Part shown: positions 5,188-60,408 of the stretch, piece after piece
Position numbering within the stretch: the first letter of the stretch is position 1
Layout of the letters: each line of letters opens with the position of its first letter
NCBI RefSeq assembly: GCF_000155775.1
Contig: NZ_DS989810.1
Coordinates: forward strand, 348,496-412,495
Length of the DNA stretch: 64,000 nt
Reading direction: 5' to 3'
DNA from: Glaciecola sp. HTCC2999
GTDB lineage: Bacteria > Pseudomonadota > Gammaproteobacteria > Enterobacterales > Alteromonadaceae
The notes under the pieces: model-generated
Databases searched by the model: none
Seen by the model: only the letters and a program-made list of their open reading frames with translations
What the model was told of the DNA's origin: nothing
Position numbers and translations under genes: made by a program

Positions 5188-5212
5188 TGAATTAATTTGA
5201 CTAAAAATGACT
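5188..5212. promoter_or_regulatory. 10-bp-phased TGANT repeats upstream of sulfatase operon
   Basis: TGAAT at 5188, TGACT at 5198 and TGACT at 5208: three pentamers exactly one helical turn apart, between the end of pntB and the sulfatase start. Same architecture as the sites at 24971-25005, 57023-57047 and 60384-60408. Candidate operator. Confidence 0.5.
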
Positions 5213-5235
5213 GCTTTAGTGAGGTATTAATTATA

Positions 5236-5262
5236 CGTCAGTTCTCATGATGAGAACTGACG
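5236..5262 (-). terminator. Hairpin overlapping the 3' end of pntB
   Basis: Perfect 12-bp stem (CGTCAGTTCTCA with TGAGAACTGACG) around a 3-base loop, overlapping the pntB stop codon. On the minus strand it is followed by TATAATTAAT rather than a clean T run, so it is a weak terminator or a 3'-end protecting hairpin. Confidence 0.5.
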
Positions 5263-6615
5263 GACAAGGTTACCCAGTGTCTCTTTAGCATCACCAAAGA
5301 TCATTCGGGTATTTTGTTTAAAAAATAATGGATTTTCAATACCAGCAAAGCCCGCAGCCATACCACGCTTAAGAACAAATACATTTTTGGCTAAATCGGC
5401 ATTAATAACTGGCATACCATATATAGGACTACCTGGTAGTTCTCTTGCTGCTGGATTGACTACATCGTTTGCGCCAATGACGATGGCAACATCAAATGTA
5501 TCGATGCGTGCATTGATTTCATCCATTTCGAATAATTGCTCATATGAAACATCCGCTTCTGCAAGCAAGACATTCATATGTCCAGGCATTCTGCCAGCTA
5601 CTGGGTGTATAGCATAGGCCATTTCTGCACCGTTTTTCTCAAGTAACTCTTGCAGCTCTTTCATCACGTGTTGCGCTTGCGCTACTGCCATCCCATAACC
5701 AGGAATTACTAGCACAGATTGCGCAGCTTCTAGAACATAAAATGCATCCTCAGGTGTTAATGGTTTGATCTCACCTTCAATTTTGACATCGCTGGTTATT
5801 ACCGCTTGGAAACCTGATGTTAATACATTAATCAGTGAACGATTCATTGCTTTACACATTATGTTAGTCAAAATGATACCGCTTGCCCCTACTAAAGAGC
5901 CCGCCACAATCAATAGATTATTTTCTAGCGCAAAACCTGCAGCACAGGCCGCCAAACCAGAGTAACTATTCAATAATGAAATCACTACTGGCATATCCGC
6001 GCCACCAATCGGTAACACAAACATCACGCCCATCAGCAATGCCAATGCAATCAGAACAATATGCCACGTCGCAACGCTTGGCTGTATAACGACAAGTACG
6101 CTAAGAGCAACAATAGCAACGATTAATGCGGCGTTAAACACTACTTGTCCTTTAAACACAATCGGACGTCCAATCATACGCTCGCTTAATTTGGCCCATG
6201 CGATAACACTGCCTGAGAAGGTAATCGCTCCGATTAATAAGGCCAACACACTGACGGTTAAGATAAACACATTAATTTGTTCAGCAGACACAATCGTTGC
6301 ATAGGCAACCGCCAAGCTAGCAAGTCCACCGATGCCGTTGAAAAGTGATACTAGTTCCGGCATAGCCGTCATTTCTATCTTTTTAGCAGTAAACACACCA
6401 ATAGCTGAACCAACGACAATACCTGCTAAAATAAGCTCAAATGATAAAATGTTTTTATCCAATAGAGTCACAATCACTGCAACAAACATACCCAGTGCGG
6501 ATAATAGGTTTCCTTTTCTAGCAGTCGCTGGATGGCTTAATAACTTCAAACCAAAAATAAATAAAACTGCCGAAACGACATAAACAAAATTAATTAATAC
6601 ATTATAGTCTTGCAC
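5245..6615 (-). CDS. pntB: NAD(P) transhydrogenase subunit beta
   Basis: 456 aa, the usual length. Inner-membrane protein with about nine hydrophobic segments (residues 1-260) and a C-terminal NADP(H)-binding domain. It carries VIPGYGMAVAQAQ, AIHPVAGRMPGHMNVLLAEA and VIGANDVVNPAA, all typical of PntB domain III. With PntAA and PntAB it couples proton entry to hydride transfer from NADH to NADP+. Last of three genes, 9 bases after pntAB. It lies between kduD and the sulfatase operon, so it may balance NADH from KduD, RhaEW and other dehydrogenases against NADPH demand. That link is inference from position. Confidence 0.95.
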   Translation of the reverse strand: MQDYNVLINFVYVVSAVLFIFGLKLLSHPATARKGNLLSALGMFVAVIVTLLDKNILSFELILAGIVVGSAIGVFTAKKIEMTAMPELVSLFNGIGGLASLAVAYATIVSAEQINVFILTVSVLALLIGAITFSGSVIAWAKLSERMIGRPIVFKGQVVFNAALIVAIVALSVLVVIQPSVATWHIVLIALALLMGVMFVLPIGGADMPVVISLLNSYSGLAACAAGFALENNLLIVAGSLVGASGIILTNIMCKAMNRSLINVLTSGFQAVITSDVKIEGEIKPLTPEDAFYVLEAAQSVLVIPGYGMAVAQAQHVMKELQELLEKNGAEMAYAIHPVAGRMPGHMNVLLAEADVSYEQLFEMDEINARIDTFDVAIVIGANDVVNPAARELPGSPIYGMPVINADLAKNVFVLKRGMAAGFAGIENPLFFKQNTRMIFGDAKETLGNLVRQFSS

Positions 6616-6624
6616 AATATGCTC

Positions 6625-6900
6625 CTATCGCTTCTTAAACATAGCTAACATGCGATCAGTCACCAAATAACCACCGACCACGTTAATTGTTGCCAGAGCA
6701 ACAGCAGCAAATCCAAGCCAAGTGGCGAATTGTGAGTGTTCACCGCCGGATAGACTTAATGCACCAATCAAAGTGATGCCAGAAATAGCATTAGAACCTG
6801 ACATCAATGGAGTGTGTAAGGTAGAAGGCACTTTACGAATGAGTTCGAAGCCAACAACAATGGCCAATATCAAAATAAACAGTAAATAAATAGCAATCAT
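6625..6900 (-). CDS. pntAB: NAD(P) transhydrogenase subunit alpha, membrane part (alpha2)
   Basis: 91 aa with three hydrophobic segments. It corresponds to the C-terminal membrane part of one-piece PntA, here a separate protein as in the three-subunit enzymes. The VPSTLHTPLMSGSNAISGI motif is diagnostic. Its ATG overlaps the stop of pntAA by one base (TAATG), indicating translational coupling. Confidence 0.93.
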   Translation of the reverse strand: MIAIYLLFILILAIVVGFELIRKVPSTLHTPLMSGSNAISGITLIGALSLSGGEHSQFATWLGFAAVALATINVVGGYLVTDRMLAMFKKR

Positions 6901-8039
6901 TATGCTTCCTTAAGTGAGTTTTGCACCATCTGGTTGGTAACGGACCCGTTATGTGTAATCACAGCAAGAATTTGAATTTCATCTTCCAAATCGATACTGA
7001 AAGTCTGTTCGTCCGAATCAGTAAATTCAGAAACCAAATTTTGCAAGTTGTTCGCATACATTTGCGAAGCATTGTAAGCAACCATATTTGGCCAATTACC
7101 CGTACCCACAATTGTCACCTTGTGCTTTACAATGACCTCACCAGGAACAGTACCTTCAACATTGCCACCATCTAGTGCTGCCATATCAACGATAACTGCT
7201 CCAGGTTTCATCTGGGCTATAGTTTCATCTTTAATTAACACTGGGGGTTTTCTACCAAACAGTTGTGCGGTCGTAATGACAATATCCGAATCACAGATAC
7301 ACTTAGCTTGTTCGGCTTGTTGAATTGCTAATTGTTCGGTGCTGAGTGCTTGAGCATAACCTTGCTCGGTTTGCTTTGTCTCACCCAAATCAATCTCTAA
7401 AAACTTTGCACCTAGAGAGCGTACTTGGTCTGCCACAACTGTTCGTGTATCAAAAGCAGTCACAGTCGCACCTAATCTTTTGGCAGTTGCAATTGCTTGG
7501 AGACCAGCCACTCCAGCACCAATAACAAACACTTTAGCCGGTTTAATAGTGCCTGCAGCAGTCATCATCATTGGCATTATAGATCTGTAATTATTAAGTG
7601 CTTGGATAACCATTGCATACCCTGCCAAACTAGCCTGAGAACTCAGGGCATCCATTTTTTGACAACGTGTAGAACGTGGGATCATTTCCATGCTAAAACT
7701 GGTAATACGGTAAGTAGTTAGGGCATCAAGATAGGCATCTTCATTAAATGCGTCTAAAAAACTGATTAGAATTTTGCCTTGAACTTGTGATAATTCAGAT
7801 TGTGGTATTTTTCGCACGCTCAAAATCAAATCCGCACGTTTAAATAAATCCTCTCTCGAGTCAGCAACAACAGCACCTGCATCATTATAGTCAGAATCCT
7901 CAATATTTAGCTGGAATCCCAAACCAGATTCTATTAATACTGAATAACCCATTAATGTGTACGATTTAATATTATTGGGCAATAGTGCACAACGTGCTTC
8001 TTGGGAATCCAATTCACACGGAAAAGCAATCACTTTCAT
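6900..8039 (-). CDS. pntAA: NAD(P) transhydrogenase subunit alpha, soluble part (alpha1)
   Basis: 379 aa, NAD(H)-binding domain I. It has the alanine-dehydrogenase/PNT N-terminal lobe and a Rossmann motif VIGAGVAGLQAIATAKRLGA. The AFDTRTVVADQVRSLGAKF stretch matches the RQD-loop region of the family. Split arrangement (alpha1, alpha2, beta) rather than the fused PntA of E. coli. First gene of the pnt trio, 130 bases after kduD on the same strand; that gap could hold its own promoter. Alanine dehydrogenase is excluded by the neighbouring pntAB and pntB. Confidence 0.93.
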   Translation of the reverse strand: MKVIAFPCELDSQEARCALLPNNIKSYTLMGYSVLIESGLGFQLNIEDSDYNDAGAVVADSREDLFKRADLILSVRKIPQSELSQVQGKILISFLDAFNEDAYLDALTTYRITSFSMEMIPRSTRCQKMDALSSQASLAGYAMVIQALNNYRSIMPMMMTAAGTIKPAKVFVIGAGVAGLQAIATAKRLGATVTAFDTRTVVADQVRSLGAKFLEIDLGETKQTEQGYAQALSTEQLAIQQAEQAKCICDSDIVITTAQLFGRKPPVLIKDETIAQMKPGAVIVDMAALDGGNVEGTVPGEVIVKHKVTIVGTGNWPNMVAYNASQMYANNLQNLVSEFTDSDEQTFSIDLEDEIQILAVITHNGSVTNQMVQNSLKEA

Positions 8040-8169
8040 AACATATCCTAATAGTTATAAATAAACTCAATACCTTTTTAATTAATGCGCAAAACATCGC
8101 ACCTTAAAATGTAAGGTACGACATTACGGAAGAACTATACTATTCTAGGTATTATTCGTAGATGTTGGC

Positions 8170-8943
8170 TTAACGTGCCATCCATCCTCCATCGACTAAC
8201 ATTACATGTCCATTCATGTAGTTAGATGCGGAACTTGCTAGGAAAACAGTAGCACCAGCTAGGTCTTCAGGTTTTCCCCATTCACCACAAGGTATGCGGG
8301 CAGTGATACTTTCGTAACGGTCTTTATCGTTACGGATATTGGTAGTATTGTCTGTTTCAAAATATCCAGGTGCAATTGCATTCACTTGAATACCTGAGCT
8401 CGCCCACTCGTTAGCTAGTGCTTTGGTTATTTGGGCAACACCACCTTTACTCGCTGCATATGCAGGAACGGTAATCCCACCTGAAAAACTGAGTAAAGAA
8501 GCAATATTAATGATCTTTCCAGAACCTTGCTTGAGCATATGATTTCCAGCCTCACGGCAAAACTTAAAAACACCATTTAAATTCACATTAATAACTTCAT
8601 TCCAGTCATCATCTGAAAATTCATGCGCAGGTGCACGCCTTATTGTGCCTGCATTATTAACAAGAATATCAATACGACCATACTTTGCTACAACAGCGTC
8701 AATGACAGCAATAATTTGTTCGCCTTTAGATTGATCACATGCCAACGCTAAAAAATCATTATTTTTAGCTTTCAATAATGAAGACGTTTGTTCTAAATTT
8801 TCAATACGAGAACCAACCACAACAACAGTTGCTCCCGCATCGCTCATAGCCAGTGCCATTGCTTGACCTAATCCTCTTGTAGCACCAGTTACTACTGCAA
8901 TTTTATCTTTTAACCCAAATTGATTTTCTAAATATGAAGGCAT
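8170..8943 (-). CDS. kduD: 2-dehydro-3-deoxy-D-gluconate 5-dehydrogenase KduD
   Basis: 257 aa short-chain dehydrogenase. It reduces 2,5-diketo-3-deoxygluconate, the KduI product, to 2-keto-3-deoxygluconate in the cytoplasm. Visible: TGATRGLGQ nucleotide motif, NNAG, the catalytic Ser-Tyr-Lys set (IASLLSFSGG, then YAASKGG) and the C-terminus VDGGWMAR typical of KduD. The partner kduI is at 48099-48929. kdgK and eda for the next steps are not in the window. Divergent from the DeoR-type regulator; the shared 287-base region carries TGATT at 8994, 9004 and 9024. Confidence 0.92.
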   Translation of the reverse strand: MPSYLENQFGLKDKIAVVTGATRGLGQAMALAMSDAGATVVVVGSRIENLEQTSSLLKAKNNDFLALACDQSKGEQIIAVIDAVVAKYGRIDILVNNAGTIRRAPAHEFSDDDWNEVINVNLNGVFKFCREAGNHMLKQGSGKIINIASLLSFSGGITVPAYAASKGGVAQITKALANEWASSGIQVNAIAPGYFETDNTTNIRNDKDRYESITARIPCGEWGKPEDLAGATVFLASSASNYMNGHVMLVDGGWMAR

Positions 8944-8986
8944 AAATATTGTCCTAATTATTACGATAATAATGAGGTTAACAATA

Positions 8987-9028
8987 AATCAAGTGATTGT
9001 AAATGATTAGATTTAATCGATATTGATT
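8987..9028. promoter_or_regulatory. Phased TGATT repeats between kduD and the DeoR-type regulator
   Basis: TGATT at 8994, 9004 and 9024 (10- and 20-bp steps), with an inverted AATCA at 8987. The 8944-9230 intergenic region otherwise shows only A+T-rich sequence in which the kduD and regulator promoters must lie. A site here could serve kduD and regulator autoregulation. Confidence 0.5.
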
Positions 9029-9230
9029 GCTATCGCTTGCTTAATATCTATATTTTTATTTACTTATATAAATTTACACCTAATGTAAAGAAAATTATCC
9101 ATTTACGTCATAACTTTTCTTTTACAATCACCTGTGACTGAAGTACTATATTATATTAGCTTCAATAACTTAAATGTAGTTTATGTATAATAAAAATAAT
9201 GACAATTCAACTGAACATGGTGGTAACCCT

Positions 9231-10016
9231 ATGTTAGAAAAACATAGACAACAACTAATAAAAGATATTTTAGACCAGCAACAGTTTGCAAGTGTAAGAA
9301 GTCTTACTGAAAAGCTAAATTCGTCTGAGGCCACTATTAGACGTGACATTACTAAAATGGCTAAACGCAATGAAATAAAAAAGATTCGAGGTGGTGCTGA
9401 ATCTATTCATGGTGAACCAATTAAAAAACATATTGCAAGTAGTGTTTTTAGAGTAGATAAAGCGAAACGCTCTGAAACCAAAAAACGCATTGCAAAACGC
9501 GCCGTTGAGTTATGTTCAGATGGTGATTCAATCATTATCAATGGTGGAAGTTCAACCTTTATGATGGGCGAATTCCTACCACAGGTTTCTGTGAATGTTT
9601 TCACAAATTCATTTGTACTTGCAAATCATATAACTGAAAATAGCGATAACCAGGTAAGCCTTCCAGGTGGTGAGATATATCGAGAACAGGGCATTATTTT
9701 AAGCTCTTATGAAAACGATTGCACACCTTACTACCATGGAAAAATGATGTTTATGGGATCACCTGGTGTGAGTAGATTCGGTGTAATGGAATCAGATCCT
9801 TTACTTATTCGTTCTGAACAAAAGTTGAAAAAACAAGCTGAGAAACTAGTTATTCTTGCCGATAGCAGTAAGATTGGCAAAAAAAGCAGCCTAGTACTCT
9901 GCCCTCTTTCAGAGGTCGATATTATTATTACGGATTCAAAAGTTGATCCAAAAGAAGTGAAGTTTCTTGAAGAAAATGGGATTGAAGTTCTAATTGTTGA
10001 AGCTGTAGATGATTAA
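9231..10016 (+). CDS. DeoR-family (UlaR-like) transcriptional regulator
   Basis: 261 aa from the ATG at 9231 (GGTGG upstream); an in-frame ATG at 9183 would add 16 low-complexity residues that the family lacks. N-terminal winged helix with SSEATIRRDITKM recognition helix and KKIRGGAESI wing, then the DeoR sugar-phosphate sensor domain (AKRAVELCSDGDSIIINGGSS, LVILADSSKIGKKSS). Overall it reads most like UlaR of ascorbate metabolism. Its position between kduD and the rhamnose operon suggests it senses a phosphorylated or keto intermediate of rhamnose or uronate breakdown. Ends in a 4-base tail-to-tail overlap with the FGGY kinase gene. It is the only dedicated transcription factor in the window, hence the best candidate to bind the phased TGANT repeats. 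That binding is inference. Confidence 0.9.
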   Translation: MLEKHRQQLIKDILDQQQFASVRSLTEKLNSSEATIRRDITKMAKRNEIKKIRGGAESIHGEPIKKHIASSVFRVDKAKRSETKKRIAKRAVELCSDGDSIIINGGSSTFMMGEFLPQVSVNVFTNSFVLANHITENSDNQVSLPGGEIYREQGIILSSYENDCTPYYHGKMMFMGSPGVSRFGVMESDPLLIRSEQKLKKQAEKLVILADSSKIGKKSSLVLCPLSEVDIIITDSKVDPKEVKFLEENGIEVLIVEAVDD

Positions 10017-11431
10017 TCTACAGCTTCATTAGATTTAGTAAGTTCTCTCCATTTTTGTTTAAATTCATCTAACCCTTCAAGTTGAATTACTGTTGCAGGA
10101 CTAACAGTAAGAATGGGTTTCTCTGTATCCCACTGAGTAAGATATGCAGCACCTAATACAGTGCCAGTACTATCTTCAGACAACATGACTTCTTGATTTA
10201 ATCTGAGTGAGTTAACAATAGAACATAACAAAGGGTTTTTAAGGAAAGCACCCTCGATATAAACATCGCCATGAGCACCTAACATATCAAGCTGGTAATC
10301 AATCATAAGTGCACAATACAACGTAGCAATAGCGATTCCACTAACTTCATTTACAGGGCCAATGAGTTTAGATTGGGCACCGCCAAATGGACCCGAGCCA
10401 TCACTAAAATCAGGCAATGCAAATACTTCATTATTAATTACATTCTGAATATCATTTTGATTAAATTGTTCACCTAACCAAGAACCAGCCTGTTCACAAA
10501 TAGCTTCAAATTCTCTTCCACCCATAAATCTTGCACATGCTATTGGTGAACCAAATGCATCGATATTAGCAAGCATATCTTTATCACTTTTAAGATTAGA
10601 AAGTGAAACCTGAGATGCCATTAATATGGTCCAAGTGCCAGTAGAAATAACTGTAAAAGGCTTATTTTCTTGAGCAATACGGTAACGTAAAAAACTTGCA
10701 TTACTATCATGTAAACCACTGAAGAACTCACAACCTTTAGGTAAACCCAATTGATGGCATAAATCGTCTTTAATATCACCAACCTTGTGCCACGCTGGTT
10801 TGAGTTTAGGAAATAAATCGATACAATCTAATTGTTTGACAAGTTCAGAATATGTGTTGTCTTTAATTGACCACAAATCGGTGTGACAACCTAAAGAAGT
10901 AATTTCCGAAACACTCTCTCCGGTAAACCGCCACGCCCAATACTGAGGGTACATGAGAATATCCGTGGTATTAGCAAATGCCTCTGGGAATGACTCTTTC
11001 AGCCAATACAGCTGACGTCCTAGATTCAGCCCCCCAGGTAAGCTCGGAGAGAAAGTATCTACGAAATCAGGACGGTCCGTTTCATAACTAATAGAATCAT
11101 CGAAAGGTTTAGTACATTCATAATCAAGAATCGGTAAAACTAAACCGTCAGGCGAAGCATTGTGTTTATCAATTAACGCAGCTGTCGCCCCATGTGTTGT
11201 AATCGTCATCTTAGTGATCGAGTATTTAGGTGTTATAGTTGTAATAGATGAACATAGCCACTTCCAAATGGCAGAAACATCTGCGCATGGGTAGATATCT
11301 GAAAGCACTGGCGTATTGCTCATTTGGGTTGAATGGACCGCTTCATAGCAACTATTCAACACCAACAACTTAACGTGTGTTTTACCAATATCAATAATTA
11401 ATGTATGAGATAACTCTGCAACAGACATCAT
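10013..11431 (-). CDS. rhaB: FGGY-family kinase, probable L-rhamnulokinase
   Basis: 472 aa. Actin-like ATPase fold of FGGY sugar kinases: LIIDIGKTHVKLLVLN (phosphate 1), a Gly/Thr-rich ISTGTWTILMA and a late VYIEGAFLKNPLLCSIVNSL (adenosine motif). It probably phosphorylates L-rhamnulose to L-rhamnulose 1-phosphate, the substrate of RhaEW. The substrate is inferred from the operon (rhaEW-rhaI-permease-kinase), not from a diagnostic residue, and the sequence is divergent from E. coli RhaB. Six bases separate it from the permease gene, so the two are cotranscribed. L-fuculokinase activity is the main alternative. Confidence 0.8.
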   Translation of the reverse strand: MMSVAELSHTLIIDIGKTHVKLLVLNSCYEAVHSTQMSNTPVLSDIYPCADVSAIWKWLCSSITTITPKYSITKMTITTHGATAALIDKHNASPDGLVLPILDYECTKPFDDSISYETDRPDFVDTFSPSLPGGLNLGRQLYWLKESFPEAFANTTDILMYPQYWAWRFTGESVSEITSLGCHTDLWSIKDNTYSELVKQLDCIDLFPKLKPAWHKVGDIKDDLCHQLGLPKGCEFFSGLHDSNASFLRYRIAQENKPFTVISTGTWTILMASQVSLSNLKSDKDMLANIDAFGSPIACARFMGGREFEAICEQAGSWLGEQFNQNDIQNVINNEVFALPDFSDGSGPFGGAQSKLIGPVNEVSGIAIATLYCALMIDYQLDMLGAHGDVYIEGAFLKNPLLCSIVNSLRLNQEVMLSEDSTGTVLGAAYLTQWDTEKPILTVSPATVIQLEGLDEFKQKWRELTKSNEAVD

Positions 11432-11437
11432 TAATCC

Positions 11438-13099: not shown

Positions 13100-13177
13100 A
13101 ACTACTCCATGACAGCTTACTTTGCTGCATTTTTTTTATTATTAAGTTGCCATTAACAGGCATACATCATTTTATAT

Positions 13178-14473: not shown

Positions 14474-14522
14474 ATATTTTCACCTATAAATTCGTTGTAG
14501 TTACATTGTTATACGTTGTTAT

Positions 14523-16715: not shown

Positions 16716-16807
16716 AGATAATGTCTCTCCCAGTGTTCTTTAATGGAAACTAAATTAACGATATCTTTACAATTCTACCCCTGATATAAACATAGTCAAG
16801 CAATTTT

Positions 16808-16861
16808 AATCAAATTCAATCACAATGGTTTTGTTTACGCATAATATGATTAAATTTGATT
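16808..16861. promoter_or_regulatory. Two inverted pairs of 10-bp-phased TGATT repeats
   Basis: AATCA at 16808 and 16818 (TGATT on the minus strand) and TGATT at 16847 and 16857. Each pair is spaced 10 bp and both read TGATT(G/A)AATTTGATTA. The two pairs face each other between the divergent rhaEW and ygjV-like genes, so each could control one side. Confidence 0.55.
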
Positions 16862-16906
16862 AGTACAAACGATATCTGTAAAAATAAGAATAGATAAAAT
16901 ATAACT

Positions 16907-18833: not shown

Positions 18834-18937
18834 AATCGTTTAATAAATGAAATTATTTGATTTAATTTGCACCAAATAGACGGGCAATGCAAGTTAATGC
18901 TAACATTAATGATACAAATATCTGACTTGGTCTCGTG

Positions 18938-19798: not shown

Positions 19799-21000
19799 TT
19801 TGATATTGCATTGTTACTGACGAAATCATACATTTGTGAGCCTGCTAATAAGAAAGCACCAACACCGTATAACTGTGAGTCGTCATAGGCCACCACATCA
19901 GGTTTATCGTTAACACCTTGAACCCAACCAAACTTACCATCAGGATGCACAGCATTATTCAGCACTGTCCAAGCGTTTAGAATTTGCGGCAAATATTCTT
20001 CTTCAGATAGTAAACCTTGATTAATGCCCCATAACAAACCATAGGTAAAGAAAGCAGTACCGCTTGACTCTGGATATTTATCTTTTTCACCAGCCAATAA
20101 CGACATAGGCCAAGAACCATCTTTCTTTTGTAGTTTGATGATTGACTGAGTTAAATTCATGTACAGATTCTCATAATATGGACGGTACTGATGTCCTTCA
20201 GGTAAATGAGTAAGCGAATTCACTATCCCCGCGTATACCCAACCAACACCTCGTGCCCAAAAAATTTGCTCATCGAATTTGCCCTTGCGGTCAAAATAAC
20301 GGGAATCACGGAACATCAATCCTGTTTTAGGATCTAGCAAAAAATCTACCGTAGCCTGAAATTCTTTATGCGCATATTCGATGTACTTTTGATCGCCAGT
20401 TGCATTTGATAACGCAATCAGCGTTGGAGGCGCCATAAACAAAGCATCAGCCCAACACCAACGCCACTGACAGTTATGCAATCGGTCTGCGTTACGACCG
20501 GCAATAAAAGTTAAATCGTTAGTAGGGTTTTGTTCTATCAGCCAATCAAAGACTTCTTTCACAGGTAGTAGTGCCGCTTGGTTATTATGTCGATTGTAAT
20601 ACCACAAGTTCATTTGGCCAATGACATGATCATCTGCAAAGTATTTCACCTTACCCATGCGCCAGTTATGAGCGGCACCAACATAACCTATCCATGTCTC
20701 GTAAAACGGGTTTGGCGAGCGTTCGGCTAAATGGGTTAAGCCTACATAAAAAGCTCCTTGAATCCAACGTCCATAAGATTCTGAGCCAAGTTGAGCACGC
20801 CCTACATGCGGCATATATTGGGTTCGCGCTACCTGCCAGTTTGCGACTTTTTCGATAGTCTGCATAACAGTCTCAGCATCCGGTAATGTCTGGGTTTTCT
20901 GCGTTACTGCTACAGGAGTACCCTGCGTTATCTCACATGCGGTTATAGTCACCAACAGCACACTGCCAAGCAGCAAACGAGATAAATATTTTAAATTCAT
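19795..21000 (-). CDS. GH105 unsaturated uronyl hydrolase, lipoprotein (second copy)
   Basis: 401 aa, lipobox TITAC (Cys22). Catalytic-site motifs FADDHVIGQMNLWY (Asp123/Asp124) and WRWCWADALFMAP (Asp185) match the other GH105 at 861-2111. It releases unsaturated glucuronate from lyase-generated oligomers. Last gene of an apparent operon: RpiB-like isomerase, sulfatase, PL24-like lyase, GH105. Differences from the first copy in the loops before and after the first motif could reflect a different neighbouring sugar or sulfate. Confidence 0.9.
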   Translation of the reverse strand: MNLKYLSRLLLGSVLLVTITACEITQGTPVAVTQKTQTLPDAETVMQTIEKVANWQVARTQYMPHVGRAQLGSESYGRWIQGAFYVGLTHLAERSPNPFYETWIGYVGAAHNWRMGKVKYFADDHVIGQMNLWYYNRHNNQAALLPVKEVFDWLIEQNPTNDLTFIAGRNADRLHNCQWRWCWADALFMAPPTLIALSNATGDQKYIEYAHKEFQATVDFLLDPKTGLMFRDSRYFDRKGKFDEQIFWARGVGWVYAGIVNSLTHLPEGHQYRPYYENLYMNLTQSIIKLQKKDGSWPMSLLAGEKDKYPESSGTAFFTYGLLWGINQGLLSEEEYLPQILNAWTVLNNAVHPDGKFGWVQGVNDKPDVVAYDDSQLYGVGAFLLAGSQMYDFVSNNAISN

Positions 21001-21071
21001 CTTATAGTCTCCTTTTTTATTACTCTTTTGAGTTTATAATTTGCCAAAAGTATCCGTATTTCCATCATGTT

Positions 21072-24970: not shown

Positions 24971-25005
24971 TGAATAAATATGATTTAAATTGATTTTTTA
25001 TGATT
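24971..25005. promoter_or_regulatory. Four 10-bp-phased TGANT repeats in a divergent promoter
   Basis: TGAAT at 24971 and TGATT at 24981, 24991 and 25001: the clearest example of the repeat in this window. It lies between the divergent RpiB-like gene (start 24940) and the PL25/jelly-roll fusion (start 25052), so it could control both. Confidence 0.6.
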
Positions 25006-25051: not shown

Positions 25052-27547
25052 ATGTACATAAAGCTCGGTTTCTTTTCTTCTATTTTTATTGGTAATTTGC
25101 TATTTATCAGTGGCTGCACAACCCCAACTAATACTCCTCAAGATAAAGATTTGCAAAGTATGCTGAACATCGAAAGAAGTATATTTATTCAAAAATATGC
25201 CAAGGAAGATCCTGTATTGACAACGCTTGCAGGACAAGCAACCCCGAAAGATAAACAAAGTATAGATTATTGGAATTGGCGTAGCGACCAGTATCTATAC
25301 GGACAATATCCAGAATACCAAGCGATTTATGATGCACAAACTACAAATAAAACATTCCACCAAATCTATGACATGCCGATAGAAGCTCTTGGACCAACAC
25401 CGGCTCCAATCAACTCTCTAAGTGCACTTCCTGAAGGGTATTTCACTGAAAATTTACCTGGAAATCCACATACCGGATGGAGCATAGTATCGGGTGATAC
25501 TTTATACATTACTTATCAAGGGAATCTAACTGACCCATATATCGCAACTTACAATCTGGCAACGCATCAGTGGAACGGTGCATATAAAGCTGGTGAAAGT
25601 ACACTGTCAAAAGGGATGCGCAAAATCGATAGTCATGGTCGCCCTATTATTGAAAAAGACAGTAAGGGTCATTTACATCTCGTCTATGGTGGACATGGTG
25701 GTGAACGTGAAGATGGATTAAACCCTAATTCGATTGATACACCTCATGCAGGTGGTCGTATGCTACATGTCATGTCTAAACGTCCTAATGACATCAGTGA
25801 GTTTGTTTATGTAAATGATATTTCACCTTTTGCTTCATACACTAAAAGCTATACCATGGGGAATGGTGACATTTATCTATTCACACGATTAGGCACACAT
25901 AAATCTCCTTGGGTGTATTATAAAATGCCTCATGGCAAACAAAACTTTGAAGATCCCGTCACGATTACACTACCCACAGTACAGAAAAACAACCCTTTAA
26001 ATGTAGATACGTTTTATATTAATCCAATAAAAATTAGCGATACAGAAATTGCCATTAGCTACCTATGGCATGAATGTAATTTTTTGGAATATCATGATAA
26101 AACGCATTACAGCCGAATTAACGCTTATTATGTAAGTTTAGATACACGTAGCGATACTTTTTTCAATGTACAAGGTGAGCAGATTGCTTTACCGATTACA
26201 CTTAACGTTGCAAATGAGAAGATGCTTGCATTTGATTCAACGAATCGAGAAGAAACACCTTTTAGCACTAGACCATTACTACTTGATAGTAATACCCCAG
26301 CTCTGGCATATCAGGCGTCAACGCCGAACTATCGAGAATGGCGAATGACTGCATTTAAAGATGGACAATGGACTCATAGCTTACCCATGCCAGGTACTGC
26401 AAAACGTACCTTAGTTGATCTAAATAATCAGAACATCGAAAACATTATTGCCCTTGAGGTCATTAAGATGTCTAAAGAAACTAAGCAAAATGCACTTGTG
26501 GTATACAAAGATTCTCTAGGCAAAAATGTTCTTGCACAAGCAGTTAGTGATAATGGTAACAACTGGCACGTAACACAAATCGAAATTGCAATGCGCAACA
26601 CACGTATTCAAATCGAACCAATCAAAAATGAAACGCAAGATACCATCGCTATGGTTGTTGCACTGAAAAAAGGAAAAGCACAACGCCTTTACCTCTGGCA
26701 TGCAGGACAATTTAGAGGTAACTCAAAGAACATACCAATCATTTCCGAGTCTTTTGAAAATGGCGGTTGGAACGCATCGCATCCACGTGGATTTACACCC
26801 GGTATAAATAGCAATTTAGCGGCCAATTTTTTGTTTAACCAACATCAGGGCGATCATGCTTTTGTACTAGAAAACAAGATTGTACGTGACGGTCAGTACT
26901 CTGCAAAATTAGTGTGGCACCACACTAATCCAGCTACATACAATGGCAATCCCAACAAAATAGATAATGTCGACCGCAAAGCCATGTTCCACGGACATAA
27001 AACTCCGACAGTTAAAGGGGCGCATGCATGGTATGGTTTTAGTGTGTATTTTCCCAAAGAAGGCACACAAGAGGAAGAGAACCCTTGGCTATTCTTCCAA
27101 ATACATGGCAGTGCTGATAAACACCTCAAAGAGCATTCTCGGAATCCTCCGTTTAGTCTTACTTTAACTGAGAATGGTCTTACAGGAAGCTGGAAATGGG
27201 ATAGTAATGAGTTAAGTCCTACCCGCACGGGTGAAGGCACTGAGAGATTTAATATTCCGGGAGATAAAGACCAATATTTGGACCGTTGGGTTGATTTTGT
27301 TGTACATGCCAAGGTTGACTATTCTGAAACTAAAACCGGCATTCTAGAACTATGGGTTGACGGCAATAAAGTGCTAAACGAACATAATATTCAGTTTGGG
27401 TACAATGACAAAAACGGCATTTATCCCTCTTGGGGGATGTATTTTAACGGTGATTTAAGTTTAATGCAGCACGATCACTATTTGTACCTTGATACTATCA
27501 AAACGAGTTCGGATAAGCGCGCCGTCTATACTGACGTCACGCCTTAG
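25052..27547 (+). CDS. PL25-like propeller fused to a heparin-lyase-like jelly-roll domain, lipoprotein
   Basis: 831 aa. Lipobox FISGC (Cys22). Residues about 130-565 form a BNR propeller related to the PL25-like proteins here. They keep His215 (YGGHGG), His232 (PHAGG), Tyr263 (FASYTK) and Arg279 (YLFTRLG), with the same 16-residue Tyr-Arg spacing. Residues about 572-831 are a different fold, a polysaccharide-lyase jelly roll of the heparin-lyase I kind (ESFENGGWNASH; HAWYGFSVYFP; PWLFFQIHGS; WVDFVVHAKVDY; GILELWVDGNKV). It therefore may be a two-domain lyase, or a lyase with a jelly-roll binding module. Residues 30-120 are a unique N-terminal segment. Convergent with the PL25-like gene at 27555, 7 bases apart. 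Catalytic competence of either domain is inferred. Confidence 0.8.
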   Translation: MYIKLGFFSSIFIGNLLFISGCTTPTNTPQDKDLQSMLNIERSIFIQKYAKEDPVLTTLAGQATPKDKQSIDYWNWRSDQYLYGQYPEYQAIYDAQTTNKTFHQIYDMPIEALGPTPAPINSLSALPEGYFTENLPGNPHTGWSIVSGDTLYITYQGNLTDPYIATYNLATHQWNGAYKAGESTLSKGMRKIDSHGRPIIEKDSKGHLHLVYGGHGGEREDGLNPNSIDTPHAGGRMLHVMSKRPNDISEFVYVNDISPFASYTKSYTMGNGDIYLFTRLGTHKSPWVYYKMPHGKQNFEDPVTITLPTVQKNNPLNVDTFYINPIKISDTEIAISYLWHECNFLEYHDKTHYSRINAYYVSLDTRSDTFFNVQGEQIALPITLNVANEKMLAFDSTNREETPFSTRPLLLDSNTPALAYQASTPNYREWRMTAFKDGQWTHSLPMPGTAKRTLVDLNNQNIENIIALEVIKMSKETKQNALVVYKDSLGKNVLAQAVSDNGNNWHVTQIEIAMRNTRIQIEPIKNETQDTIAMVVALKKGKAQRLYLWHAGQFRGNSKNIPIISESFENGGWNASHPRGFTPGINSNLAANFLFNQHQGDHAFVLENKIVRDGQYSAKLVWHHTNPATYNGNPNKIDNVDRKAMFHGHKTPTVKGAHAWYGFSVYFPKEGTQEEENPWLFFQIHGSADKHLKEHSRNPPFSLTLTENGLTGSWKWDSNELSPTRTGEGTERFNIPGDKDQYLDRWVDFVVHAKVDYSETKTGILELWVDGNKVLNEHNIQFGYNDKNGIYPSWGMYFNGDLSLMQHDHYLYLDTIKTSSDKRAVYTDVTP

Positions 27548-35607: not shown

Positions 35608-35652
35608 AATCAAATCAAATCATTAACAATCAAAAAAATAATAAAAAAATCA
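35608..35652. promoter_or_regulatory. Phased TGATT repeats (minus strand) upstream of TonB receptor
   Basis: AATCA at 35608, 35618, 35628 and 35648 are in 10-bp phase (one step skipped); another at 35613 is out of phase. They lie 93-137 bases upstream of the receptor start. The surrounding DNA is very A+T-rich, so the chance background is higher here than at the other sites. Confidence 0.45.
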
Positions 35653-36003
35653 TTTATAGTCATTGCATTTCAACTTGAATGTTTTTAAATACCGCCCTGC
35701 TTTATACTTCCCACTATATTGTGTATATGGTCCAGCTAAATCCAAAAGCGCCGAAGTATTACTTGGGACCGTAAAACGCCAAATAATAGTATCCACCTGA
35801 CGTTCCCATTGGCTATCAATCGTGCTGTATCCTATTGAAATATTAAAGGCAGTATCGCCATAACCATAATCACTCAATGCAAGATATAAATAGGTCTGAG
35901 CTAGTGCACCAACTGAGGCATGTCCATTCCATGTACTGATAACATCGTTATTGATGGCTTGAGCTACCTTTGCTCGCACTTCTTTGGGTGCAATATCAAC
36001 TGA
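35650..36003 (-). pseudogene. Relic of a GH78 alpha-L-rhamnosidase with an internal deletion
   Basis: Directly after the stop of the sulfatase-GH39 gene an open frame encodes only the C-terminal pieces of a GH78 enzyme. The part SVDIAPKEVRAKVAQAINND..GHASVGALAQTYL..DYGYGDTAFNI matches the GH78 region before the WE.WN motif. It then jumps to IGYSTIDSQWERQVDTIIWRF with VPSNTSALLDL, the C-terminal beta domain. About a hundred residues in between, including WELWNG and the NH.W region, and the whole N-terminal catalytic part are missing. A GTG at 35979 could start a 109-aa peptide, but no ribosome site supports it. An intact GH78 lies upstream at 39097-41454. Best read as what remained after a deletion or rearrangement at this junction. 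Confidence 0.7.
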
Positions 36004-44242: not shown

Positions 44243-44251
44243 ATCATCCTC

Positions 44252-45820: not shown

Positions 45821-45833
45821 TATAAAACAAACC

Positions 45834-45868
45834 TGACTGATTATGACACAATATGAATAGATATGACT
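45834..45868. promoter_or_regulatory. Four 10-bp-phased TGANN repeats upstream of PL24 operon
   Basis: TGACT 45834, TGACA 45844, TGAAT 45854, TGACT 45864, in perfect 10-bp phase, 14-48 bases upstream of the PL24 start. More degenerate than at 24971 but same geometry. Confidence 0.5.
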
Positions 45869-45916
45869 ACTTTATAATCCGTTTTTTTTTTACATTTAAT
45901 TAACGAGGGAGTCGCT

Positions 45917-48085
45917 TTACTTTAAGGACATAAAATAACGATATTGCTGTCTATTTTGTTGTTTTTGAGCAAGATACAGTCCCAAATCCACCAGCTGTGG
46001 ATTATTATTGTAACGTTTAAGACTGGTGCGTAAGTTGAGTAACGCTTGAGCTGTGCTATTTTTCTTATCAAGTGCTAAAAAATAAAGGTAGGCATATTGC
46101 GGGTTAGTTGGTGCCTGTTTGATTGCTAGTGATGCTTGTTCTATAGCATTATCTACATCATTTTGACGAATATAAAACAGTGCATAGCTATATAACAATA
46201 AATCAGCCTTAGGGTTGTGTTTCAGGCCCTTTGCAAACATTGCTTTTTCTGCAGCAGTGTCTCCTGTCATTTTATAAATATTACTTAGATTAACATAAGA
46301 AGGTACAAAATAAGGATCCACCTTAATGCTGTGTTTTAAACTTTCAATGCCTGGTGTTATTTCGTTTTGCTGTATGTGTATCATGCTTTTATTCAAACCA
46401 CCCTCGCCGCGCCACATACCCTGTTCTCTGGCAGCCATTAGTTCTGCAAACGCTTGATTGAATACTTCGGGTTCAACAAATGACATTCCAACAAGATGCA
46501 CTGCCGCCTCTACTCGTACTGAGCGCAGTTCGTCAGAGAGCAAGTTAACAAAGCCTTTTCGTTTATCAACGTCACTTAACATAGAGCCTATTTTTGCAGT
46601 AGCTAAACGGACCAAGGGATCATCAGAAACTAACCAATCTTTCACTGTGTTGTGTGTAACTGTCTGTGTACTATTAGGTAGTAATGCAATAGCACTGGCA
46701 CGATATATCTCGTTCATATTTTTATCATTGGCTAATGCAAGTTGTTGACTAAGCGGTAAGCCCCCTTGATCTAATAAACGAATAAACAATTTCTCCGAAT
46801 CTGTAAGCGGGCGATTATTAGGATAATTCATCTTTATTTGTTGAGCAGCCCAGTCCGACCCTTTATCTACATGACAACTATTACAGGCATTTGGGATATC
46901 AAATGCTGAAGTTAATTCAGGACGGGGGATCTTAAAACTATGATCACGACGAGCATCGACCCCCATATATGTTGTAGTTGGCATGTGACAACTCACACAT
47001 TGTGCAGGTTCAGTTCCAGACTTATGCATTAAATGTTGAGAGTTTTCATATGCCTGTGGTTGATGACACTGTAAGCATAGACCGTTGGTTTGAGTTTTGA
47101 CTTTCATAGTGTGCGGATTATGACAATCTACACAATTGACTCCAGCGCTATACATTTTACTCTGCAAAAAAGAACCATACACATACACTTCTTCTTTGAT
47201 TTGCCCATCGGCGTGATACATCGTGTTATCAAGTAAAGCGACCGAGAACTGATCTAAAAACGGGGTATCTGCTGAAAACCCATCAGTGATAGGAGCACGC
47301 AATGAGTGACAAGCATAACAGGTTTCCATAAAACGATTATCACGCTTTTCTCCTTGCCAACTAGCAATATTGTTGTCTTCGGTAAAAGCCCATTTACTCA
47401 CCTTTTTAGCGGTGTCTTTCAAGTATTCTAAACCTGTTTGGTCTAATGTATTCATCAAAGTAGACGCATGTCCAGACATATCAGTATGACATGACTTACA
47501 GCCCACATTAATGTTATCCCAATTAGTAGAAAAACTGTCAGTATGAGTATCATAATTACGCTTTAACCCATCAGAGTGACAGTCGGCACACATACCATTC
47601 CAGTTTTGTAAAGGCTGCTGCCAATGTAGTCTATCATTTCCCTGAATATCTTCTTCAGGATACATAACATACCAACGTTGCCCGCCTTCAACTTTAGGTC
47701 GACTATCCCAAGCAAACGGAAAGACCTGTAAGCGCCCATTATCGGCTTTAATGAGATACTGCTGTAATGGATCATGACCAAAAGTATACTCAACACGATA
47801 TTCCGTGGTTGTATCACCCTCAGTAAATGACATCCAATAAGCATCATCTTTGCTATAAAAGGTTACTTTTTGGGAAAAGTGTGAAACCACAACCCCAGAA
47901 AAATCACCCAACACATATTTCGCAGTCGGCGGGTTCATCGCTTTGAAGTGGTCGGATTGTTGCCACAAGCTTACTTGTTCACTATGACAGTCGATGCAAT
48001 TTTTATAGCCTGTTGCGGCATCACTAGGACTGGCTAATACAGCACAAGAGATACAGCAAAATAAAGCTATGAAAAATCGCATCAT
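45917..48085 (-). CDS. Octaheme c-type cytochrome with HEAT/TPR C-terminus
   Basis: 722 aa. Signal peptide ends near SPSDA. Eight CXXCH haem sites in the first two thirds (CIDCH, CADCH, CKSCH, CYACH, CVDCH, CLQCH, CVSCH, CNSCH), as in cytochrome c554/nitrite-reductase-like multihaem proteins. HEAT-like repeats (WLVSDDPLVRLATAKIG) and three TPR units (DPYFVPSYVNLSNIYKMTGD onward) follow. Periplasmic, probably an electron-transfer protein; partner unknown. It lies only 13 bases after kduI with no strong ribosome site of its own, so it looks coupled to a uronate gene. No other respiratory or haem-maturation gene is near. Function in ulvan breakdown is unclear. Confidence 0.85.
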   Translation of the reverse strand: MMRFFIALFCCISCAVLASPSDAATGYKNCIDCHSEQVSLWQQSDHFKAMNPPTAKYVLGDFSGVVVSHFSQKVTFYSKDDAYWMSFTEGDTTTEYRVEYTFGHDPLQQYLIKADNGRLQVFPFAWDSRPKVEGGQRWYVMYPEEDIQGNDRLHWQQPLQNWNGMCADCHSDGLKRNYDTHTDSFSTNWDNINVGCKSCHTDMSGHASTLMNTLDQTGLEYLKDTAKKVSKWAFTEDNNIASWQGEKRDNRFMETCYACHSLRAPITDGFSADTPFLDQFSVALLDNTMYHADGQIKEEVYVYGSFLQSKMYSAGVNCVDCHNPHTMKVKTQTNGLCLQCHQPQAYENSQHLMHKSGTEPAQCVSCHMPTTTYMGVDARRDHSFKIPRPELTSAFDIPNACNSCHVDKGSDWAAQQIKMNYPNNRPLTDSEKLFIRLLDQGGLPLSQQLALANDKNMNEIYRASAIALLPNSTQTVTHNTVKDWLVSDDPLVRLATAKIGSMLSDVDKRKGFVNLLSDELRSVRVEAAVHLVGMSFVEPEVFNQAFAELMAAREQGMWRGEGGLNKSMIHIQQNEITPGIESLKHSIKVDPYFVPSYVNLSNIYKMTGDTAAEKAMFAKGLKHNPKADLLLYSYALFYIRQNDVDNAIEQASLAIKQAPTNPQYAYLYFLALDKKNSTAQALLNLRTSLKRYNNNPQLVDLGLYLAQKQQNRQQYRYFMSLK

Positions 48086-48098
48086 AAGAGTGTGTTAT

Positions 48099-48929: not shown

Positions 48930-48964
48930 GGTAAATTTCTCGTTCGCTTACGGTTGAGCGATAC

Positions 48965-48988
48965 TGCAATAAAATGATTGATATTGCA
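48965..48988. promoter_or_regulatory. Inverted repeat upstream of kduI
   Basis: TGCAATA (48965-48971) and TATTGCA (48982-48988) form 7-bp inverted arms with a 10-bp spacer containing one TGATT, 36-59 bases upstream of kduI. Possible operator for a different regulator than the phased-repeat sites. Confidence 0.3.
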
Positions 48989-49025
48989 ATACGTAACCAT
49001 TTTGTTAATTGTGTTTTGTTTCTAC

Positions 49026-49060
49026 AAAAAAAAACGCCGCTGTTTAACCGGCGGCGTTTT
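49026..49060 (-). terminator. Rho-independent terminator of the TonB receptor-lipoprotein operon
   Basis: On the minus strand, AAAACGCCGC pairs with GCGGCGTTTT around a 10-base loop and runs into a string of T. Located 17 bases after the stop of the lipoprotein gene at 49077; strong, G+C-rich stem. Confidence 0.9.
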
Positions 49061-49076
49061 TAGTCAGTTATGTGAC

Positions 49077-51794: not shown

Positions 51795-51867
51795 TATAAG
51801 ATTCCTTAATACATAGTTACTCCATAAAAATGACACTCATTTAATATGGAGTAATTTTTATTTTTTA

Positions 51868-53404: not shown

Positions 53405-53439
53405 TTTAATTGTCCTATAAATATTCTTTTCGTCTTTAC

Positions 53440-56841: not shown

Positions 56842-57146
56842 GAAGATCTCGCTTATGCTTATAAATGTAATGTAAATTATGATTTTGTTAATGATAAGTT
56901 AAACTATTAATCATTAGATTGCAACACCGCTCAACATCAATCATTAAAATATTAATAATATTTACAAAAAATATTAAATATATTGGATTATTTACATTTA
57001 ATTCATAAATATCACACCGCAATGATTATCAATGATTGATATTGAGTGTTTTTTTTGGCAGGATAACTCGAAGTTAAATAATTATAAAACCAATGTTATT
57101 TATTCGTTGTATTGCGGATGTATTTACACTAATAAGGTATTGATAA
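56842..57146. promoter_or_regulatory. Divergent promoter region with phased TGATT repeats
   Basis: 305 bases between the second receptor and the large PL24-like gene. TGATT at 57023 and 57033 and TGAGT at 57043 are in 10-bp phase. AATCA at 56909 and 56939 (30 apart, same phase with each other) could serve the receptor side. The rest is A+T-rich without a visible small gene. Confidence 0.5.
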
Positions 57147-60068
57147 ATGAATATTCTAGTAAGCGATAGAAATTACTCCCAAAATTTACTATCTAAAAGG
57201 TGCTTTTTCTTTGGCTCAGTTCTATCTTTTGTGAGGCTATGCCCGAAAATAAAATTTATGGCGATGTTGTTTATATTTTCATTCACAAGTTACGTCAGTG
57301 CCGATATTTCTGCCCAATCACCACTTAAAATTGCAGACAACGGTCTCTACTTTGATGGTAAAGATTTAGATTATGGTACTGTTTCTCAAGCAGACACTGG
57401 TGATAAATATGATTTTTTCTTTGGTCGCAGTATATCTGCCCACGGAGATGCGGTTAAAACTTACAAGCATTTTGTATTTATGACATGGTATCGGGGTGGT
57501 AAAAATGACAGACATGTCATGTTAACTCGTCTAAACACCCTAACAGGTAAAACCGTAGACATAGAATTTCCACACCAACATACAGGTTTTAGAGGTAACC
57601 CACTGATAGGTGAATCACACAACACGATTGGAATCGCGGTAAGTCCGATTAATGGCACCATACATATGGTTTATGATATGCATGCTTATGATAATAATAA
57701 TCATGATGGTGTTTTCAAAGATGATTTCTTTCGATATTCATTTAGCATACCCGGAGCAGCTGAAGTATCAGATGAAGAATTTACTCTCCAACAATTTGTG
57801 AAAGATACAAGTGAGATTAGCCAAGGTGAAGATGATTATAAGCATCTAGTTATGACAGGCAACTTATCCGATAAAGGTAATTTTGCTCGCTTAACATATC
57901 CTAAGTTTTTTTCAACCGATGATGGAACATTATTACTATATATGCGTTTGGGTGGTAATAATAATGGGGCATACTTATTTAATAGCTATGATGCAGCCAC
58001 TGAGACATGGTCCAAATTTACTAAGTTTAACGAAAATAATCAGAAAAGCTTAGGAAATGAATATAACTGGGGCCTATATGGCAACATGAAATACCTTAAT
58101 GGCAAGCTACGTATTGGTTTTCAACAGCGCAGCAGTGACAACAATGATAAATACAAATATCAAAATGGTGTTTACTACGCTTATTCTAACCATCCGCGAG
58201 GAACTGGTGACTGGTTTAATCATCGCGACGAGTCCATTACTTGGCCGTTAATAAACTCAGATGAAATCAAAGTGTTTGAGCCAGGTGATTATATTACTCA
58301 CGAGCAGCCAAATTCTGTATATATAGTTAAAGACTTTGATTGGACAGTAACCGCACGTGGTGATATCCACACTATCAGCTTAGTAAAAACGAATGCATCT
58401 TCTGCAGAAGCTACAAAGTTTGGATTTGCAGATGTAGAAAAAGAACAAGTCTACATTCACGCTTATAAACCTGCGGGCGCAGATGAATTTATTATAGATA
58501 CCGAATTTGTAGGTGCCTCAGCCATTTATACATCAGGTGATAACATTTATATTATAGGGTTGGATAATGGTAGACCTTATATTGAGGTTGCTAAAGGTGG
58601 TACTAATGAATTTACTCGAGCTTATACATCTAATTCTGGACCAATATTCACACATGGAACCATATATATAAACGATGGAGTGGTTTATTTCTACATGCAG
58701 GAGCGTGGCACAGGTAATGCAACACCGCTATATCTTCAAATATTTGACTTGGGTATTTCGCAGGTAAATGTCAGTTTTCCAGAAGCTCAACTTACTATTC
58801 CAAAGGGATATTCTGAGCTATCAATTACCGCATTACCAACGGTTGGCAATTCATCTAAAAGTATAACAAGTGTGTCGCTATTCATTAACAATAATCTAGT
58901 TTCTACACTCGATACTGCGCCATTTAATTGGTCTCAAGCGGAAGCATTACTAAAAGATTTAGATATCGGAACCTATCAGCTCAAAGCGGTGGCAACTGAT
59001 AACACTGACGCTACTGTCGAATCCACGATGGATGTAATAGTAGTTGATAGTGCACCGACAATTGCTTTTTCCAACAACAACGTTGAGTTACTAGAAGGGT
59101 ATGATGAAGTAACGATTTCAGTAACAGCAAGCTCGCCAGATACTAATCGCAGTATTACCGAAACAAGGCTTTACCTTAACGATACACTGGTCAGCAGAAA
59201 TGATATAGCGCCCTACACTTGGACATTTGCCGATGCTGCGTTACAGGGGCTAGTCGCTGGTAGTTATACTCTGCGAGCAGAGGTTACTGATAGCGAGAAT
59301 GAAACTGCTGAAGCTTCAGCCACAATCACGGTGATTGATCCTACACCAACAGTCAGTTTTGCTAAAGATACGTTTACATTAACAGAAGGCTACACAGCGT
59401 TTTCTCTAAATGTCAATGCAACCACTCCAGTTTCAGGACGTACCGTGGCAGAAGTACAGTTACTCGTAAATGATAACGTCATTCGCAGTGAAACAGTAAC
59501 TCCTTATCAATGGGGGCATAATGCTGATTTCCAGGCTGAATTACTTAACTTCCCAGTAGGCACACATACGTTAAAAGCGATCGTAACTGATAGTGCGGGT
59601 TTAAAAGCAGAAGCGACTGCAACATTAAGTGTGCAAGAGGTCGTTGTGGCACCCGTTGTTACATTCAGCCAAATCCCGACCTCAATACAACAGGGTTATA
59701 GTGATTTAATGATTACGGCAAGTGCTACTACTCCAATGCGTACACGCACAATAGCGCATGTTAGCTTATTTGTGAACGATATCAAAATAGCACAGGTAGA
59801 CACCGCACCATACCAATGGACTGACAGCATGAGTGGTTTAGCATCATTGACAGCAGGTACATATCAACTACGTGCAGTTGCTACTGATAGTGCGGGTGTA
59901 GAATCAGCCATAACAGGACAACTAGTTATTGCTGCGCAACCATCTACCACACCAACACCTACGCCGACACCATCACAGCCAAGTTCCGACGGAGGCTCTG
60001 GTGGTTCTACCTCATTATTAATGTTGGGATTAATGTTGCTATGCTTATGTAGAAAGGTAATACGTTAG
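57147..60068 (+). CDS. PL24-type ulvan lyase with four Ig-like repeats and GlyGly-CTERM tail
   Basis: 973 aa. Long signal sequence (about 53 residues, cleavage near YVSA); AAGG precedes the ATG. Residues 55-535 are a PL24-like propeller with His158 (GESHNT), His179 (YDMHAY), Tyr306 (EYNWGLY) and Arg322 (KLRIGF). Residues about 540-935 hold four Ig-like units of about 97 residues (each with [16 protein letters not shown]-type and [11 protein letters not shown]-type strands). A Thr/Pro linker (TPTPTPTPS), then GGSGGS, a hydrophobic helix and a basic end (CRKVIR) form a GlyGly-CTERM sorting tail, typically processed by a rhombosortase in the inner membrane on the way to type II secretion. Probably the released, extracellular ulvan lyase that begins attack on the polymer. 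Confidence 0.87.
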
Positions 60069-60084
60069 TATTATCGTAACCATA

Positions 60085-60117
60085 TAAAAAAGAGCATGTT
60101 TTACATGCTCTTTTTTT
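60085..60117 (+). terminator. Rho-independent terminator after the large PL24 gene
   Basis: AGAGCATG (60091-60098) pairs with CATGCTCT (60104-60111) around TTTTA, extended by flanking A and T runs and followed by seven T. Sits 17 bases after the stop. Confidence 0.92.
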
Positions 60118-60383
60118 GACTGATATCGTTATAATTTCAATGTAACACCTAATATTACATGTCTATCAAAAAAGACTAACTAACATAAAAGCATTCTTTC
60201 CTTAAGCAGCATTTATCGCGGTATTGCTAGTTTAATGTTCACCTCCCAAGCCGACAATTATGTTGTTGTCTATGTTCTAAGTTTGACCCATACTTAATTA
60301 CACACAACTATCCATAACAGGCAGCATATCAAACTCGAAGCCCACTCAAATCAAACCAATACCAACCATAAACCGTAAATTAA

Positions 60384-60408
60384 TGAGTTATATTGACTGA
60401 AAATGACT
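60384..60408. promoter_or_regulatory. 10-bp-phased TGANT repeats upstream of the beta-helix/xyl operon
   Basis: TGAGT 60384, TGACT 60394, TGACT 60404. Lies in the 408-base gap 60069-60476, which otherwise holds only the terminator at 60085 and no recognisable gene or RNA. About 70 bases upstream of the start at 60477. Confidence 0.5.

Follow-up and report, generated by a model that had tools for sequence, protein, structure and literature searches.

DeoR-family regulators known as RhaR are among the closest described relatives of the system considered here. The available parts of PMC9025865 and PMC3870299 assign Rhizobium RhaR a negative role in the control of rhamnose operons. According to the accessible text of PMC3870299, DeoR-type RhaR proteins fall into at least four groups that are not orthologous, and most of their regulons span one to several operons. 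It gives the motifs of four groups as a pair of imperfect direct repeats, each of 10-11 bp, and describes Chloroflexus RhaR as binding a tandem of four sites from which L-rhamnulose releases it. Similarly, the portion of PMC3219644 at hand presents E. coli UlaR as a tetramer acting on four operators and released by ascorbate 6-phosphate. In this work, we analysed a stretch of 64,000 nucleotides from Glaciecola sp. HTCC2999 (hereafter, the window; contig NZ_DS989810.1, C8:348496-412495), part of an ulvan cluster in which TGA(T/C)T pentamers recur as direct repeats with a 10-bp period in front of operons. We consider it likely that the RhaR of the cluster itself, encoded at 9231..10016 on the plus strand, uses these arrays as its operators and that repression would be relieved by a rhamnose intermediate, co-inducing the cluster—a reading drawn from sequence comparison. 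Both regulator and operator are of an already known kind; what is new is their spread over a whole ulvan cluster. Among the openly accessible papers listed in literature searches, none dealt with the control of bacterial ulvan clusters by RhaR, and neither RhaR nor DeoR is named in the accessible parts of PMC13050008 (where regulator terms occur only in the reference list) and PMC7953866.

The Glaciecola protein carries both Pfam domains of the DeoR family, HTH_DeoR (PF08220, 52.8 bits for a cut-off of 21) and DeoRC (PF00455, 127.7 bits for a cut-off of 31.8), and its conserved start, MLEKHRQQ, lies at 9231, within a longest open reading frame (ORF) that begins at 9183. Its recognition helix, SEATIRRD, recurs in all 13 close, all 30 more distant and all four rhizobial orthologues, as well as in seven of eight others; 13 unrelated DeoR controls have TPQTxRRD, SEVTIRKD and other helices instead. 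In the phylogenetic tree, γ-proteobacterial RhaR, rhizobial RhaR and UlaR group together (100/99), to the exclusion of 13 other DeoR proteins and SrlR. The gene neighbourhood (rhaEW, rhaI and a sugar kinase around rhaR) is that of the rhizobial type, and so is the 10-bp direct-repeat operator, the published motif having been compared by its verbal description. The initial annotation had proposed this DeoR/UlaR-like protein as the likely binder—a proposal that the co-occurrence of arrays and RhaR supports and that can be refined to a RhaR-like, i.e., rhamnose-type, regulator, which makes 2-keto-3-deoxygluconate (KDG) a less likely inducer. An identity as UlaR was rejected, with the NCBIfam UlaR equivalog reaching 208.6 bits, below its cut-off of 244, and a different helix.

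Several features are shared with the rhizobial system. Rhizobium/Sinorhizobium RhaR is 43-46% identical to the window protein and adjoins rhaEW, and the array TGAYT-N5-TGATTGACA is present in four of four rhizobial rhaEW-rhaR regions. A RhaEW-type enzyme and the rha ABC transporter lie beside rhizobial RhaR in all four loci, and rhaI is listed in three of them. However, the rhizobial loci comprise two divergent rhamnose operons, whereas the polysaccharide genes of Glaciecola carry ~16 arrays across ~117 kb. PMC3870299, whose motifs were compared here by the verbal description in its accessible part rather than as logos, may already include the rhizobial motif. According to the same part, Chloroflexus aurantiacus RhaR resembles the present system in its family, its rha operon, a genome with RhaEW and a tandem of four sites within 38 bp, but its site letters, TCGAAA, differ (PMC3870299). 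UlaR, which falls in the same supported clade and is described in the available text as a DeoR repressor with four operators (PMC3219644), is only 33% identical to the window protein, carries the helix SPATARRD and serves the ascorbate pathway. In E. coli K-12, the ulaG-ulaA region (L152:1267-1291) reads TGATTggtttTGATTaatccTGACA, i.e., TGATT-TGATT-TGACA in 10-bp phase; UlaR operators therefore seem to be built from arrays of this type as well, which marks the operator type as known and may place its origin before the RhaR/UlaR split.

The arrays are concentrated around the window. Across the assembly searched (2.56 Mb in 11 contigs, 82% complete), the three-repeat TGANT triple has eight matches, all in C8:304314-419241 (~115 kb around the window, two of them outside it), against none for the reversed pattern—an imperfect control, since its composition differs. 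In the noncoding DNA of the window (2,809 bp as defined by the analysis script), TGAYT-N5-TGAYT was observed nine times, where dinucleotide shuffles average 0.08, and the TGANT triple five times, where they average 0.00; none of 500 shuffles matched the observed count of either pattern. Pairs are less specific assembly-wide (70 matches, compared with 22 for the reversed pattern), and 23 of the 70 sit in C8:302-421 kb, some within coding DNA. An operator matrix trained without the Glaciecola sp. HTCC2999 genome scored seven of the nine initially annotated arrays at 18 or more, and two lower (16857 at 13.4 and 45864 at 12.7). Coding positions in the same stretches reach 17.0, so that these two sites rest on phase and place rather than score; in an unrelated 20-kb stretch of the same genome the maximum was 6.8. 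The repeat unit is closer to TGATTGAAAW, with more degenerate repeats flanking on both sides. Taken with the spacing spectrum described below, the genome scan and shuffles bear out the original idea of a regulon-wide operator in exact 10-bp phase. All positions first listed do carry a TGA-type pentamer in this register, although some letters differ from TGA(T/C)T: 5188, 24971 and 45854 read TGAAT, 57043 and 60384 read TGAGT, and 45844 reads TGACA.

Moreover, the arrays follow RhaR across genomes. In noncoding DNA, TGAYT pairs at spacings of 9, 10 and 11 bp number 0, 32 and 0 around 14 close RhaR loci (window included) and 5, 62 and 3 around 30 more distant ones, against 0, 1 and 0 around 13 unrelated DeoR genes; anagrams of the motif are flat. 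Spacing peaks at 10, 20 and 30 bp were found only near RhaR orthologues, with extra peaks at 14 and 24 that come mostly from the -35 TTGACT of rhaEW promoters. The retrieved locus holds at least one strict array for 12 of 13 close orthologues and for 26 of 30 distant ones, compared with one of 13 unrelated DeoR loci. Among rhaEW genes with complete upstream DNA, a strict pair precedes 23 of 26 (7/8 close, 16/18 distant) and the other three differ by one letter; the same upstream regions contain pairs with N4 and N6 spacers in none and none of the eight, and in one and two of the 18. The phase predicted for relatives is thus kept both around RhaR orthologues and before rhaEW, and a locus from another family of the order (L122) likewise has an array in front of a RhaEW homologue of 39% identity. 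Across 43 RhaR-positive genomes, 172 triples were counted against 72 for the control pattern, and across 32 RhaR-negative genomes 46 against 44 (Mann-Whitney p 7e-7 for triples, 0.12 for the control), counts that simple repeats in G072, G015, G032 and others inflate. A tighter triple, searched in 27 of the 43 RhaR genomes, gave 45 matches against three for its control, with at least one in 20 of the 27. Thirty of these matches lie outside RhaR loci, in 26 remote stretches, of which 20 have a three-repeat array at most 400 bp upstream of a cluster-gene homologue (at least 35% identity to window, flank or pAlt76 cluster genes; five include rhaEW itself). Arrays before ulvan- or rhamnose-type genes were found in none of 19 stretches of RhaR-less genomes (Fisher 7e-8), a control that differs in pattern and gene content, so that the comparison speaks for association rather than mechanism.

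The reach of the arrays exceeds the window. The window contains eight positions scoring at least 18 (35612 and 35652 belonging to one array), besides the weaker 16857 and 45864, and the 80 kb of flanking DNA contain seven noncoding sites at or above that score, located near BNR_4 and Polysacc_lyase genes, two α-L-rhamnosidases (Bac_rhamnosid6H), a TonB receptor and a cupin/BNR_4 pair; the same flanking stretch encodes a RhaT-type transporter. In total, lyases, sulfatases, rhamnosidases and TonB receptors are marked by ~16 arrays within ~117 kb. The region also encodes a GntR-FCD regulator (L010:15690-16415) and an AraC-PAS regulator (L012:7261-8067). Six arrays, together with a RhaR orthologue (57.5%), are found on the ulvan plasmid pAlt76 of Alteromonas sp. 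76-1 (L142-L144), where they precede a RhaEW-type gene, an α-L-rhamnosidase, a GMC oxidoreductase pair, a TonB receptor, a BNR-4 protein and a GH43 protein. Strain 76-1 is reported to grow on ulvan. On balance we favour, with some reservation, the view that RhaR alone governs the whole ulvan system through its ~16 pentamer arrays and that regulator, operators and cluster move together, also on plasmids.

In the window itself, the clearest promoter is that of rhaEW (16794..16822, minus strand; score 29.7), with the layout TGATT-N5-TGATT-N5-TGCTTGACT: a third, degenerate repeat (TGCTT) overlaps the -35 box TTGACT, followed by N16 and TAGAAT, which places the pair at about -57 and -47. A weaker divergent pair, TGATT/TGATT (16847..16861, plus; 13.4, within the coding background range), points towards the ygjV-like gene. 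The array TGAAT/TGACT/TGACT (5188..5212, plus; 24.5) stands before the minus-strand operon of a sulfatase, gene 2141 and GH105, just downstream of a TATAAT, its repeats at about +11 to +31 of the predicted start. Between kduD (minus) and rhaR (plus), TGATT/TGATT/-/TGATT occupies 8994..9028 (plus; 21.1), and a four-repeat array (24971..25005, plus; 28.4) separates the rpiB operon (minus) from the polysaccharide-lyase gene at 25052 (plus), lying on the opposite strand over or just after the predicted rpiB start, less surely than at 5188. The minus-strand repeats 35608, 35618, 35628 and 35648 before TonB receptor 1 are present as annotated and are joined by an additional one at 35658 (35608..35662; 24.8 and 19.3). 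The weakest array, TGACT/TGACA/TGAAT/TGACT (45834..45868, plus; 12.7, again within the coding background range), precedes the minus-strand operon of a BNR_4 (PL24-like) protein and a sulfatase; here, the array would cover the transcription start only if the third-ranked prediction of that start were right. Finally, a plus-strand array at 57023..57047 (22.0) separates TonB receptor 2 (minus) from the large BNR_4 gene (plus), and another at 60384..60408 (23.3) precedes the beta-helix/FGGY kinase operon. The ORF start listed for the latter, 60393, is a TTG inside the array, and the annotated start is probably too early.

A wider survey of 96 arrays found 53 facing only a downstream gene, 13 only an oppositely directed gene, 27 both and three neither. 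Same-strand arrays have a good -35 box at +3 (21/80) or +13 (12/80) from the last strict repeat, offsets one turn apart. A -10 position shared by all arrays was not found, the same-strand class having only small peaks at +25 and +35, which leaves the per-promoter geometry weak outside rhaEW. Positions overlapping the -35 box and positions over the start both suit steric repression. In the mechanism that we propose, RhaR would bind tandem TGATT(G) half-sites on one helix face, probably as an oligomer over two to five repeats, and, when rhamnose is not being catabolized, would block RNA polymerase, because the arrays overlap the -35 box or cover the transcription start. L-rhamnulose or L-rhamnulose-1-phosphate, intermediates of L-rhamnose breakdown, would release it, leading to joint induction of rhamnose and uronate catabolism, lyases, sulfatases, rhamnosidases and TonB receptors. 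In Bacillus, the RhaR inducer is rhamnulose-1-phosphate. Computation shows the arrays, their phase, their association with RhaR and their targets in this and related genomes; that RhaR is what binds them and that it represses (the latter by way of rhizobial RhaR and UlaR) we infer, as we do the inducer and the oligomeric state.

Several other explanations of the arrays were weighed against repression by RhaR. That they are chance motifs of A+T-rich intergenic DNA would fit the frequency of TGATT in DNA of 40% GC, the pairs outside the cluster and the 46 triples of RhaR-less genomes, yet shuffles, the reversed pattern, anagrams and N4/N6 spacers all fall far below the observed counts, as do unrelated DeoR loci and the gene context in RhaR-less genomes; these controls refute chance for the cluster and make it a negligible explanation overall, even if single weak sites could still be accidental. 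The initial annotation had also suggested two related regulators, one for TGATT and one for TGACT, on the strength of three TGACT-rich sites in the window. Yet neighbouring repeats are TT in 61 cases, mixed in 30 and CC in five, where independence predicts 60, 32 and 4 (Fisher p 0.54), and triples such as TGACT/TGATT/TGACT occur. The two letters mix freely, a second regulator is not needed, and, with one RhaR-type gene in the 82% complete assembly, we regard this suggestion as extremely improbable. Scarcely better placed is binding by the GntR-FCD or AraC-PAS protein instead, which we hold to be very unlikely: both genes do lie within the ~117-kb region, and AraC proteins can use direct repeats according to the accessible text of PMC3870299, but the arrays track RhaR across genomes and into rhizobia, where RhaR is the sole regulator listed in four stretches with incomplete gene tables.

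A somewhat less remote alternative, though still an unlikely one, is that RhaR binds but activates, with repeats upstream of or abutting the -35 box recruiting RNA polymerase in the presence of inducer. The fixed, in-phase -35 offsets and the rhaEW pair at about -57/-47 fit such a role; the 13 of 96 arrays that face only an oppositely directed gene do not, nor do the 5188 repeats downstream of the predicted start, where activators rarely act, and the available parts of PMC9025865 and PMC3870299 give rhizobial RhaR a negative role. Repression by the cluster's RhaR nevertheless has a number of observations to contend with. Arrays upstream of the -35 box, as at rhaEW, would also suit an activator; the predicted inducer is borrowed from a distant RhaR, and the support is computational. 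Within the clade, UlaR joins γ-proteobacterial RhaR before rhizobial RhaR does, albeit with weak support (91/43). The helix is not exclusive either: UlaR-type SPATARRD proteins adjoin similar arrays at E. coli ula and in L124 (G055), where TGATT arrays lie upstream of the gene, at 10425 and 10633, which lowers our confidence. Seven of the 27 RhaR genomes have no tighter triple, the RhaR genomes G403, G031 and G082 have no TGANT triple, and six of the 26 remote stretches have no array before a recognised homologue. Furthermore, a strict pair lies at most 250 bp upstream of the RhaR gene in only 2/13 and 9/31 cases, so that autoregulation is confined to part of the genomes.

Should control by RhaR hold, the cell probably takes one product of sugar breakdown as its cue for turning on the cluster: ulvan sensing would need no oligosaccharide receptor, the signal being a cytosolic product of rhamnose breakdown. 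The analysis puts forward a single regulator and a single operator together with a few candidate inducers, and phased TGAYT repeats offer a sequence tag for locating more ulvan and rhamnose genes.

The distribution of the system is patchy. RhaR orthologues (E<=1e-45) occur in 43 of 395 family genomes, that of strain HTCC2999 included, and the rhizobial-type rhamnose isomerase RhaI (TIGR02629) in 40 (36 over the cut-off), all among the 43; G017 has no more than short fragments, at the ends of contigs. Nine other drawn genomes of the genus have neither RhaR nor RhaI at the thresholds used, so that the cluster of more than 110 kb looks accessory and horizontally acquired; its G+C content (0.38-0.42) differs little from that of another stretch of the same genome (0.41). 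The nearest plasmid-borne orthologues are those of Pseudoalteromonas sp. KG3 (72%), Catenovulum adriaticum (70%) and pAlt76, with alphaproteobacterial proteins ranking below them. The KG3 plasmid stretch (L145) carries several insertion sequences and two DeoR genes (5926-6705 and 19980-20810), with an array upstream of each. Regarding related regulators, the Glaciecola assembly encodes two full-length DeoR proteins and one weak match, and no array was found within 20 kb around the gene of the second full-length protein. In G116, a paralogue (L121) that is 40% identical to RhaR and has the helix SAATIRRD adjoins a homologue of the large BNR_4 protein, and its 20-kb stretch lacks strict TGAYT arrays; the paralogue is possibly a second, respecified regulator. 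Additionally, a multihaem cytochrome c/TPR protein is encoded within the ulvan cluster at 45917-48085; pAlt76 encodes a cytochrome c3 family protein, and a 46% homologue adjoins RhaR in L116.

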